Origin: Hyphomonas sp.
Lineage (GTDB): Bacteria > Pseudomonadota > Alphaproteobacteria > Caulobacterales > Hyphomonadaceae
Direction of reading: 5' to 3'
Assembly: GCA_013791775.1 (NCBI GenBank)
Contig: VMTE01000006.1
Coordinates: 1-64,000 of the forward strand
Length of the DNA: 64,000 bases
Shown: in pieces, positions 33,781 through 59,969 of the stretch
Layout of the letters: each line of letters opens with the position of its first letter
How positions within the stretch are numbered: the stretch's first letter is position 1
Translations under genes and position numbers: made by a program
The notes under the pieces: model-generated
What the model was told of the DNA's origin: nothing
Database searches by the model: none
What the model saw: the letters and a program-made list of their open reading frames with translations, nothing else

Positions 33781-33856
33781 CCGCTCACCCCCGCGAAGGC
33801 GGGGGTCTCGCAAGGTGCCTGCCTCACCCGGCCCCCGCCTGCGCGGGGATGAGCGG
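33781..33856. repeat. Palindromic element, CCGCTCA(T/C)CCCCGCG family (copy 1)
   Basis: Left arm CCGCTCACCCCCGCGAAGG begins at 33781; the right arm ends CGCGGGGATGAGCGG at 33856. Together they form a 27-bp inverted repeat with a few mismatches and a 22-base centre. The same family occurs inside ileS at 59,087-59,157. Lies in the 249-base gap between the NDUFAF6-like gene and the 135-aa ORF; nothing else is evident in that gap. Confidence 0.85.
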
Positions 33857-33983: not shown

Positions 33984-34391
33984 ATGATCCCGCTGCGCGC
34001 CCTTCGAGCCCACCCGCACTATGCTGACCTGTTCCAGCTCGTGCCGCGGCTGCTCTGGCCGATCCTCTGGTGGCAGCTGAACAGGATGATCCGCTGGATG
34101 CAGGCCGAACAGGTCATCGACGTCCTCTTCTCCACCAGTCCCTGGGGCTTGATCACCATCCGCTACGCCGGATACAAGCCGGATCCCGACCTCTACAGGC
34201 CGGCTCCGAGAATCTTCCGTCCCCTGAACGATGCGTCCTGGGCCAGTGCCGTGCCGGTCGAAATCGAGCTGCGCACCCTCAGCGCAGCAACGCGCACCGC
34301 CCTTTTCCTCCCCCGCGAAGCGGGTGGAGGTGGCATTGCGCGCAGCGCAATGACTGAGGGGGCGCTGACCTCGCCGCTGAACACCTCCTAG
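33984..34391 (+). CDS. Hypothetical protein with repeat-derived C-terminus
   Basis: 135 aa. Residues 1-100 are Trp/Leu/Arg-rich (LLWPILWWQLNRMIRWM) and look like an amphipathic or membrane-associated small protein with no family match. From about residue 107 the reading frame enters a palindromic element (34,305-34,361), giving LFLPREAGGGGIARSAM and the rest of the tail. So the natural C-terminus has probably been replaced. No clear ribosome binding site. It may be a decayed gene. Confidence 0.5.
   Translation: MIPLRALRAHPHYADLFQLVPRLLWPILWWQLNRMIRWMQAEQVIDVLFSTSPWGLITIRYAGYKPDPDLYRPAPRIFRPLNDASWASAVPVEIELRTLSAATRTALFLPREAGGGGIARSAMTEGALTSPLNTS
34305..34361. repeat. Palindromic element of the CCTCCCCCGCGAAGCGGG type
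   Basis: CCTCCCCCGC-GAA-GCGGGTGGAGG (34307-34330) followed by CATTGCG/CGCAATG (34334-34340 with 34346-34352) and a closing GAGGGGG. Two stacked hairpins in the style of dispersed GC-rich repeats. Lies inside the end of the 135-aa ORF. Confidence 0.75.
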
Positions 34392-34398
34392 ACATTTC

Positions 34399-34430
34399 CC
34401 GCTCGACCCCTCCGTCGCGGGGATGAGCGG
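34399..34430. repeat. Short palindrome related to the CCGCTC family
   Basis: CCGCTCGACCCC (34399-34410) pairs with GGGGATGAGCGG (34419-34430). It looks like a shortened copy of the 33,781 and 59,087 elements. In the 102-base gap before trmFO; may terminate converging transcripts. Confidence 0.65.
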
Positions 34431-56876: not shown

Positions 56877-59800
56877 ATGACCGACACTGCTGCGACTGAA
56901 CGCGATTACCGCGACACGCTGTTCCTGCCCAAGACCGACTTCCCGATGCGCGCCGGACTGCCCAAGGCAGAGCCCGAGTGGATCAAGCGCTGGGACGCGA
57001 TGGGCCTCTACGCCAAGCTTCGGACAAGCGCCCAAGGCCGCACGCCCTTCATCCTGCATGACGGCCCGCCCTACGCCAACGGCCACATCCACCTCGGTAC
57101 GGCGCTCAACAAGATCATCAAGGACATCATCGTCCGCTCGCACCAGATGCAGGGCTTTGACGCTTCCTACCTGCCGGGCTGGGATTGCCACGGCCTGCCC
57201 ATCGAATGGAAGGTGGAGGAGGAGTTCCGCTCCAAGAACCGTCCGAAGGACTCCGTGCCGGCTGACGAATTCCGCGCCGCGTGCCGCGCCTATGCCGAGC
57301 ATTGGGTGAAGGTGCAGGGCAAGGAATTCCGCAGCCTCGGCATCGAGGGCGAATGGGACGATCCCTACCTCACCATGGCCTTCGAGAGCGAGGCGGTGAT
57401 CGTCTCGGAATTCCTCGACATGGCGATGAAGGGCGGCCTCGTGCGCGGCGCCAAACCGATCATGTGGAGCCCCGTCGAACGCACGGCGCTCGCCGAAGCG
57501 GAAGTAGAATACCACGACCGCAAGGTGCCGGTGGTGTGGGTGAAGTTTGGAATCGACTTCAATGCAAAGCCTATCAGAAGCCGTGGCGACTTCTTGGAAA
57601 TCTCCGAGTTGGTGAATGCGAAAGTTGTTATCTGGACGACCACGCCTTGGACAATTCCAGCGAACCAAGCAGTAAGTTTCAATCCGAACATCACTTACGT
57701 CGCTTACGAAGTCGAAGAAGTTGCGACCGAAGCTGAATTGGGTTTTGCACCTTATGCAGCTGTAGGCGATCGACTGGTGCTTGCCGAAAATCTCGCTTCA
57801 GACGTGATGTCGTCAGCGAAAGTGAAGCGCTTCAAGCCGCTTGGAACTGTTGACCCTCACGGTTGGACGCTCGAGCACCCGCTCTACCATGTCGGAGACT
57901 TCTTCCAGCACGCCATCCCGATGCTCGCCGGTGATCACGTCACCGCCGATGCCGGCACCGGCTTCGTCCACACCGCGCCCGCGCACGGTGAGGATGACTT
58001 CAACGTCTGGCTCGCGACGGACCACACGGCGCAGGAAATCCGCCAGATCGTCGACGCCGATGGTCGCTACACGGACGATGTGCCTGAGCCCCTGAAGGGC
58101 CTCGACATCATCGTCACCTCCGGCAAGAAGCGCGGTGAGGCGGGCAAGGCGAACAACGAAGTCATCCGCCTCCTCGCCGAGAGCGGCAACCTGCTGGGGC
58201 GCGGCATCACCACGATCCGCGATGCCCACTCCTGGCGCTCGAAAGCCCCGGTCATCCGCCGCGCCACGCCGCAATGGTTCATCGCGATGGACAAGCCGGT
58301 GCATGCAGGCAAGACGCTACGCGAACTGGCGATGAAGGCCATCTCGGACACCGAGTTCTTCCCGCCCACTGGCCGCAACCGTCTCTCCGCGATGGTCGAG
58401 AGCCGGCCCGACTGGCTGATCTCGCGTCAGCGCAACTGGGGCGTGCCGATCACACTGTTCGTCAACACGAAGGGCGAGCCGCACACCGCCGCGCTGCCGA
58501 AGGATCAGGCCGACAAGCTTAACGCCAACATCAAGGCCGCCATCGAGAAAACCGGCGTGGACGGATGGTTTGCCACGCCGCTCGAATCTTTCTTCGAGGG
58601 CACGGGCGTCTCAGCCGAAGGCTGGGAAAAAGTCACCGACGTGCTCGACGTCTGGTTCGATTCCGGCACAACCCACGCCTTCGCCCTGCGCAAACGCGGC
58701 ATCATCGACAATGCCACGGGGCAGGCGGACGTCTACATGGAAGGCAGCGACCAGCACCGCGGCTGGTTCCAGTCCTCGCTTCTGGAGTCCTGCGCCACGC
58801 GCGGCATGGCGCCTTACAAGCAGGTCGTCACCCACGGCATGGTCGTCGATGCCGAAGGCAAGAAAATGTCGAAATCCATCGGCAACACGATCGAGCCCGA
58901 CGAATTCCAGAAACAGCACGGCATCGAAATCCTCCGCCTCTGGACGGCGTCGGCCGACTACTGGGACGACACCCGCATCTCTGACGAGATCATCAAGGGC
59001 ACCATCGAAACCTACCGCAAACTGCGCAACACGCTGCGCTACCTGCTCGGCGCGCTGGATGGTTTTACACCGGAAGAATCCCTCCTCTCCGCTCATCCCC
59101 GCGAAGGCGGGGATCCAGTGCGGCCCGAGGCCCCCGCCTTCGCGGGGGAGAGCGGAGTTGAGTCGATGCCCGGCCTCGAACGCTTCATCCTCCACCGCCT
59201 CGCTGAACTCGACAGTGAAGTCCGCGCCGCCTTCCAGGTGTTCGACTTCAAACGCGTGATGACCGCCATCGTCAATTTCGTGAACGTCGAACTCTCGGCC
59301 GTCTATTTCGACATCCGCAAGGACGCGCTCTACTGCGACCCGTCCTTCGCGACCTCGAAAGCGTGGGACGAGGAAACCTCCGTACACGGCAATCGCCGCC
59401 GCGCCGTGCGCACGGTGATGGCCGCCGTGATGGAGCGGCTGCTCTGCTGGCTCGCGCCGGTGATGCCGTTCACCACGGACGAGGCCTTCGGCGAAAGCCA
59501 CCTGAAAGGCTCAGCCCCTTCGGTCCACCTGCTGCTCTTCCCGGAAACTCCTGCCGGTTGGCGCGACGCCGCGCTCGCCGCCCGCTGGGAAAAGATCTTC
59601 CGTGTCCGCCGCGTCGTCACCGGCGCCCTCGAAGTCGAACGCCGCGAGAAGCGCATCGGCGCTTCGCTGGAGGCTGCCCCGGACGTGATCATCAGCGACA
59701 AGGCCCTGATCGACGCCTTTGCGGGCGAGGACGCTGCCGACCTGTTCATCACCTCCGGCGCCGTACTGGTCCAGGCCGCGTCTGGCCCTGCCGGTGCCTT

Positions 59801-59969
59801 CGCCCTCGACGACACGCCCGGCATCTGGGTCGTGCCCCGGCTGGCGCCCGGCATCAAATGCCGCCGCAGCTGGAAATACTTCGATCCCGCAACCGCCATG
59901 CCCGGCTTCCCGGACATCACGCCGCGCGACGCGCTGGCGGTGAAGGCCTGGGATGGGGCGGCCGGGTAG
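56877..59969 (+). CDS. ileS: Isoleucyl-tRNA synthetase with in-frame palindromic insertion
   Basis: 1,030 aa class I synthetase charging tRNA-Ile. HIGH-type motif in PYANGHIHLG (65-74), KKMSKS at 662-667, editing-domain T-rich WTTTPWTIPANQA, and the Trp-rich WDCHGLPIEWKVEEEF. Two oddities: codons about 222-321 (57,541-57,840) are about 49 % GC against about 68 % nearby; and residues about 737-761 (SAHPREGGDPVRPEAPAFAG) are encoded by a palindromic element at 59,087-59,157. The catalytic motifs remain intact, so it should be functional. Confidence 0.96.
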   Translation: MTDTAATERDYRDTLFLPKTDFPMRAGLPKAEPEWIKRWDAMGLYAKLRTSAQGRTPFILHDGPPYANGHIHLGTALNKIIKDIIVRSHQMQGFDASYLPGWDCHGLPIEWKVEEEFRSKNRPKDSVPADEFRAACRAYAEHWVKVQGKEFRSLGIEGEWDDPYLTMAFESEAVIVSEFLDMAMKGGLVRGAKPIMWSPVERTALAEAEVEYHDRKVPVVWVKFGIDFNAKPIRSRGDFLEISELVNAKVVIWTTTPWTIPANQAVSFNPNITYVAYEVEEVATEAELGFAPYAAVGDRLVLAENLASDVMSSAKVKRFKPLGTVDPHGWTLEHPLYHVGDFFQHAIPMLAGDHVTADAGTGFVHTAPAHGEDDFNVWLATDHTAQEIRQIVDADGRYTDDVPEPLKGLDIIVTSGKKRGEAGKANNEVIRLLAESGNLLGRGITTIRDAHSWRSKAPVIRRATPQWFIAMDKPVHAGKTLRELAMKAISDTEFFPPTGRNRLSAMVESRPDWLISRQRNWGVPITLFVNTKGEPHTAALPKDQADKLNANIKAAIEKTGVDGWFATPLESFFEGTGVSAEGWEKVTDVLDVWFDSGTTHAFALRKRGIIDNATGQADVYMEGSDQHRGWFQSSLLESCATRGMAPYKQVVTHGMVVDAEGKKMSKSIGNTIEPDEFQKQHGIEILRLWTASADYWDDTRISDEIIKGTIETYRKLRNTLRYLLGALDGFTPEESLLSAHPREGGDPVRPEAPAFAGESGVESMPGLERFILHRLAELDSEVRAAFQVFDFKRVMTAIVNFVNVELSAVYFDIRKDALYCDPSFATSKAWDEETSVHGNRRRAVRTVMAAVMERLLCWLAPVMPFTTDEAFGESHLKGSAPSVHLLLFPETPAGWRDAALAARWEKIFRVRRVVTGALEVERREKRIGASLEAAPDVIISDKALIDAFAGEDAADLFITSGAVLVQAASGPAGAFALDDTPGIWVVPRLAPGIKCRRSWKYFDPATAMPGFPDITPRDALAVKAWDGAAG
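59087..59157. repeat. Palindromic element inside ileS (copy 2 of the CCGCTC family)
   Basis: Left arm CTCCGCTCATCCCCGCGAAG begins at 59087; right arm ends TTCGCGGGGGAGAGCGGAG at 59157. A 71-bp inverted repeat, translated through in frame. The same family lies between genes at 33,781-33,856 and, shortened, at 34,399-34,430. Confidence 0.9.

Follow-up and report, generated by a model that had tools for sequence, protein, structure and literature searches.

An in-frame palindromic repeat within the isoleucyl-tRNA synthetase gene of Hyphomonas

The palindromic element in ileS

A true palindromic repeat lies in frame within ileS, an essential gene of Hyphomonas sp. encoding isoleucyl-tRNA synthetase (IleRS), and is very likely translated as part of the enzyme. 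The window analysed here, 64,000 nt of contig VMTE01000006.1, belongs to a genome of 3.93 Mb (G000), and the ileS product encoded in it scored 714.9 bits against TIGR00392 (cut-off 621.4). Three further IleRS matches in the same genome are 28-30% identical pieces of open reading frames of 909 and 876 aa that presumably encode ValRS and LeuRS, and as the full-length IleRS gene is single, ileS is presumably functional. Coordinates of the gene, of the element and of two other family copies in the window are given in Table 1.

Table 1. Features of the window (positions within the 64,000 nt)
Feature	Position	Strand	Details
ileS (isoleucyl-tRNA synthetase, 1030 aa)	56877..59969	+	Sole full-length IleRS match in the genome
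Palindromic element CCGCTC...GAGCGG, 67 nt	59089..59155		With T59088 and A59156, a 69-nt insertion
First REP-like unit	59095..59117	+	Stem ATCCCCGC, loop GAAG, stem GCGGGGAT, tail CCA
Second REP-like unit	59132..59155	-	CCCCGCCTTCGCGGGG followed by the GAGCGG end; head-to-head with the first unit
Whole inverted repeat in ileS	59082..59162		Arms 59082-59112 and 59132-59162
Family copy, in-gene test failed	33781..33856		Arms 33781-33805 and 33832-33856
Shortened, degenerate family copy, in-gene test failed	34399..34430		23.4 bits, E 0.068 (weak)

The insertion amounts to 23 codons, leaves the frame open and accounts for residues S738-G760, with the sequence SAHPREGGDPVRPEAPAFAGESG. The 71-bp inverted repeat described in the initial annotation corresponds to this insertion with one extra base on each side, and its proposal that the repeat adds residues to the protein agrees with the open frame, from which the insert would be translated. 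The arms of the whole inverted repeat are 31 nt long, 87% complementary and separated by 19 nt; folded as RNA, the repeat has an energy of -62.2 kcal/mol (z -6.88), and none of 200 shuffled sequences was equally stable. A search of the window against Rfam gave no match at the gathering threshold. Comparison with G037, the IleRS of which is 91% identical, displays a clean insertion of 69 nt (159 vs 90 nt), and no target-site duplication was seen by eye at this one site.

In the protein, the insert is situated between the Pfam domains tRNA-synt_1 (residues 35-702) and Anticodon_1 (residues 769-933), in keeping with the earlier placement between the catalytic core and the anticodon-binding domain, where a loop may be permitted. 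An AlphaFold model of IleRS (mean pLDDT 86.5, pTM 0.79, alignment of 35 sequences) places it between helices 703-726 and 766-787. Residues 739-754 have pLDDT values below 50 and form the sole internal stretch of more than three residues that low, and the inserted loop before the anticodon-binding domain is predicted to be disordered. At the same place the IleRS of 1ffy, which we take to be the solved S. aureus enzyme, is shorter by about the length of the insert.

A dispersed repeat family

The genome contains 18 occurrences of the 16-nt core of the element, CCCCGCGAAGGCGGGG, and 0 of the reversed control sequence. Eleven family copies could be aligned across both arms, with variable middles, and were used to build a covariance model with a 26-bp stem, with which the genome was searched on both strands. 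The search returned 95 rows at E <= 1, from which 52 distinct places were counted. This is a minimum, since scoring covered only 150 of the 8559 first-look candidates and the core matches C14:36796 and C51:16202 are absent from the count. A partial match at C16:261-298 (20.2 bits, E 0.44) was omitted, and three of the places included have best E values of 0.04-0.13. At least 77 nt are covered in 48 of the 52, which fit both halves of the model, and the remaining four are short forms of 42-46 nt. Left ends read CCGCTC in 31 copies, CCG[CT]AG in 13 and TGTC or CGTC in two. The two copies previously named in the window, at 33,781 and, shortened, at 34,399, were both recovered (Table 1). Directly before the short copy, at 34300-34370, lies another palindromic stretch, CCCCCGCGAAGCGGG followed by CATTGCGC...GCGCAATG.

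Copies L068 and L070 have 80 nt in common at 97.5% identity, the middle included, from 4 nt before CCGCTC through GAGCGG, and blastn found no other similarity between them in the flanks, which were compared over as much as 700 nt per side. We conclude from this that the whole dimer was moved or copied as a unit. Such clean ends are not universal, as L068 and L078 share 137 nt at 83.9%, extending about 50 nt outside the element. Among the 42 genomes of the genus, own genome included, 30 contain matches to the model (E <= 1e-4, with stricter filters). At one site a 42-nt short form in G000 (L100 1533-1574) is orthologous to a full copy of 86 nt in G016 (L257 1468-1553), as if the middle had been deleted.

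The IleRS site in related genomes

An IleRS match was obtained in all 42 genus genomes, and the 41 with sequence over the insertion site, own genome included and G018 left out, were aligned. An insert of at least 15 residues is present in six of the 41 (G000, G023, G033, G034, G038 and G010). The other 35 have a short loop with an insert never above one residue (one extra residue in G022); in the comparison proposed in the initial annotation, the added residues are thus absent from most of the relatives aligned. G000 and G023 carry the same palindrome in ileS, each as a 77-nt match to the model.

The clade sister to G000 in the IleRS tree (support 95/86) consists of G033, G034 and G038, in which the insert has 15 residues and is no longer palindromic. 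Over the first 42 nt, 15 of which precede the element, 26-28 positions match G000, while codon shuffles of these inserts gave a mean of 12-13 matches and none of 20,000 reached the observed value. Within the 27 nt inside the element there are 16 matches to G000, a number reached by 32, 82 and 54 of 20,000 shuffles for the three inserts. These matches above the shuffled level support, without proving, that the insert of this clade is an eroded copy of the ileS palindrome. G010 and L138 (Hyphomonas polymorpha) have a different 15-residue insert at the same IleRS position, which is not evidently palindromic; that of G010 looks unrelated to the ileS palindrome.

In a survey of the family, 98 of 105 genomes were matched over this stretch (seven gave none), and a net insert of at least 15 residues was found in seven of the 98, namely the six of the genus and G062. 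Among 80 named loci, five have an insert of at least 15 residues at the IleRS site. One of the loci, from Henriciella sp. OFTM158 (L159), a genome probably identical to G062, carries in this position an insert with two GC-rich hairpins of different sequence, as read by eye, that scored only 15.2 bits (E 0.084) against the covariance model; we take it to be independent of the Hyphomonas element. Two side observations were made during these comparisons. Nucleotide identity among congeners is often 0.5-0.8 at ileS codons of about 200-400, against about 0.9 around them, and three Hyphomonas genomes (L115, L116 and L144) are deposited as Candidatus Sulfopaludibacter or Acidobacteria, record names that look wrong.

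Copies in other genes

A copy was considered to lie within a gene when open frame extended for 30 codons or more on either side of it, with GC3 > GC1 > GC2 and GC3 > 0.7, a test that copies at contig ends were unable to pass. It was passed by three of the 52 own copies, that in ileS and those at C25:79377-79466 and C25:80836-80929, and failed by 49. The protein containing the former C25 copy has lipoyl and transketolase domains, identifying it as pyruvate dehydrogenase (PDH) E1-beta, and that containing the latter has lipoyl, E3-binding and acyltransferase domains, identifying it as PDH E2. Both copies are in frame and lie in the linker that joins the lipoyl domain to the following one. The candidate at C14:247929 was rejected as a fourth case; it is flanked by coding-like stretches, yet the coding frame is not open across it. 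When the test was applied to 43 copies chosen from the matches listed for 13 other genomes (a set outside which G034, G040, G039 and others with copies fell), two passed, those in ileS and E2 of G023.

The initial annotation had asked whether in-gene copies keep one reading frame, which was ruled out, since each arm is read in two frames among the three genes. Arm 1 is read as A-H/R-PRE-G/S-GDP in ileS and E1-beta and as PLTPAQAGA in E2, and arm 2 as PAFAG in ileS and as PDPRLRG in E1-beta and E2.

Of the 41 genomes giving a long E1-beta match, 30, own genome among them, contributed E1-beta and E2 sequences for alignment. In E1-beta, REP-like residues were recognised by eye in G000 alone, and the G000 linker, one of five E1-beta linkers tested, folds with a z of -3.23 (0 of 40 codon shuffles). 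In E2, the model matches G000 (80.4 bits) and G023 (40.1 bits) among the matches listed, while folding against codon shuffles, a test that is blunt in GC-rich E2 linkers, gave z -1.38 for G000 (3 of 40) and z -2.05 for G023 (1 of 40); the two linkers are counted as copies because of their model scores and not their folding. The E2 linker of G038 contains a CGTC-type palindrome with a 12-bp inverted repeat (z -4.84), the exact core of which is at G038:C27:23831. Another palindrome, of 14 bp (z -5.34), is found in the E2 linker of G022 (G022:C27:147532); a search with a 21-nt pattern gave no exact sibling and it is therefore not called a repeat. Palindromic DNA of three kinds is thus seen in the E2 linker across Hyphomonas: the ileS type (G000 L073 1501-1594 and G023 L281 3650-3743), the CGTC type (G038) and a third (G022). 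The E2 linkers of G025, G036 and G034 had also appeared REP-like by eye and were rejected, as they fold no better than shuffles (z -0.83, +1.66 and +1.77, with 40 shuffles each).

Origin and maintenance of the insert

The explanation that we hold to be very probable is that the ileS element is a non-autonomous, CGTC-REP-like head-to-head dimer that persists in genes only at flexible linkers able to accommodate an open frame, and later erodes as coding sequence. According to this scheme, a non-autonomous element of two head-to-head stem-loops, about 67-90 bp in length, would have dispersed mainly outside genes, and one copy would have entered ileS or its ancestor with a length and frame that left the gene open. 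The 23 codons would thereby have been added to the loop between the post-KMSKS helix and the anticodon-binding domain, a place where an unstructured loop would be tolerated, so that the sole IleRS gene would keep working. The same tolerance filter could account for the copies in E1-beta and E2, which likewise occupy linkers between domains. Once in a gene, a copy could cease to be palindromic and evolve like any other coding sequence, as may have happened in G033, G034 and G038. The location in an essential gene would be explained because linkers tolerate insertion; mobility of the element, and tolerance without benefit, are what we infer from these patterns. A RAYT transposase was rejected as the mover of the element in G000, since matches to Y1_Tnp (RAYT) number 0 in that genome; Y1_Tnp was found in nine of the 42 genus genomes at E <= 0.001, four above the cut-off.

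We consider it improbable that the inserted loop is adaptive, whether as a peptide-coding unit or as a modifier of IleRS acting on tRNA binding or through regulation by an mRNA hairpin, and kept by selection. The same two genes, ileS and E2, carry the element in both G000 and G023, Henriciella uses the same IleRS place, and the inserts of G033 and G034 differ by 4 synonymous and 0 nonsynonymous changes, all of which would suit selection. However, G033/G038 and G034/G038 each show 3 nonsynonymous changes, the G000/G023 evidence consists of just 9 changes (5 synonymous and 4 nonsynonymous), the loop is predicted to be disordered, 35 of 41 genus IleRS do without an insert and two reading frames are in use. 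The initial annotation saw in the element a peptide-coding unit, either favoured by selection or able to insert in that capacity. This is not supported, given that only 3 of 52 copies (the latter a lower bound) are in genes and that two frames, patchy presence and erosion in the sister clade were encountered. An assembly artefact, or a palindrome arisen in place and unrelated to the repeat family, is extremely improbable: certain other copies do lie at contig ends, nothing of the kind applies to ileS, and both versions are contradicted by G023 carrying the same insert and by the 52 places of the family.

The history of the insert shared by G000 and G023 is a separate matter. Both have the shortened 67-nt form at ileS and are not sisters in the IleRS tree, so that losses or transfer are needed. 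A single ancestral insertion, precisely lost elsewhere in at least five lineages counted on the IleRS tree, is a serious possibility with chances a little short of even, when set against transfer or two insertions. It is favoured by three G023 copies outside genes that are orthologous to G000 copies (L234/L063, L235/L072 and L240/L065) and by copies being able to shrink, as the short form in L100 indicates. A recombination tract around the G023 insert was sought and none was clear, the informative sites being mixed along the gene, which also favours one insertion. Against it, relatives lacking the insert show the short loop with no more than one extra residue, and repeated exact excision is a costly assumption. 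Some copy sites are also common to G017, G011 and G016; as sites are shared across species, a number of copies are therefore old. Synonymous divergence of the insert between G000 and G023 is about half that of the rest of the gene (5 of 23.7 sites vs 302 of 710), which might reflect constraint or recent sharing. Spacer identity (14/18) was discarded as proof of a common G000/G023 origin, as it is too weak: among 171 pairs of own copies, 14 are as alike, with spacers extractable from just 19 of the 52.

More broadly, and with rather more doubt than belief, we propose that in Hyphomonadaceae several palindromic families repeatedly land in the interdomain linkers of the core enzymes IleRS, E1-beta and E2, where copies inserted in frame would gradually be worn down to new coding sequence under constraint. 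If true, recurrent landing in linkers would be a running source of protein loops, the stages of which could be caught by species comparison. For ileS itself, a free-living genus offers the insertion, the empty site and an apparently eroded state of one in-gene palindrome side by side in one essential gene, making the role of palindromic repeats in protein evolution testable by species comparison and simple enzyme assays.

Comparison with known systems

A 2013 study describes CGTC REPs as mostly alphaproteobacterial, mainly head-to-head dimers and without a dedicated transposase, with in-gene copies that include tRNA synthetases of X. oryzae, E. litoralis and S. alaskensis (PMC3733652); the string 'hyphomon' is absent from its main text. 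Hyphomonas jannaschiana VP2 is listed among REP-rich genomes in another report (PMC12306157). Literature searches on RPEs, alphaproteobacterial REPs and Hyphomonas palindromes yielded, among the matches listed, no Hyphomonas in-gene cases, eroded series or repeated use of the same linkers; among the papers listed for Hyphomonas palindromes, RepRanger alone appeared relevant; a search on palindromic insertions in IleRS yielded nothing relevant, and one on intragenic REPs with Sphingomonas yielded PMC3733652 alone.

The elements resemble MITEs in being inverted repeats that are short, non-autonomous and capable of in-frame fusion, but no target-site duplication was seen by eye at the ileS copy. 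With the GTAG REPs associated with RAYT they have in common short-palindrome dimers that are dispersed largely outside genes; unlike them, the elements have ends that read CCGCTC, CCG[CT]AG or TGTC/CGTC in the copies sorted, and G000 is without a RAYT match. The likeness to CGTC REPs extends to the 8-bp stem starting with AT and the 4-nt loop (ATCCCCGC/GCGGGGAT, 59095-59114), within the stem of 8-9 bp and loop of 4-5 nt of that class, to dispersed head-to-head dimers (48 of 52 places fitting both model halves) and to the lack of a known dedicated transposase and to in-gene copies including tRNA synthetases. A CCA tail follows the first ileS unit (59115-59117) and varies in other copies. The tag of the element is (C)GCTC and not CGTC, TGTC or CCTC, and it is therefore called CGTC-REP-like, strict membership not being claimed.

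The resemblance to Rickettsia palindromic elements (RPEs) noted in the initial annotation appears real, in that RPE-6 and RPE-4 are equated with CGTC-1 and CGTC-4 REPs in PMC3733652. As described for RPEs, palindromic repeats are in frame in genes and are carried as an extra peptide (ileS, E1-beta and E2). In-frame RPEs are summarised in PMC10969869, according to which nearly half of the R. conorii RPEs are in genes, compared with 3 of 52 copies in Hyphomonas, a free-living host. The kind of element is already known from Rickettsia and other bacteria, and the ileS case is a clean new example of it.
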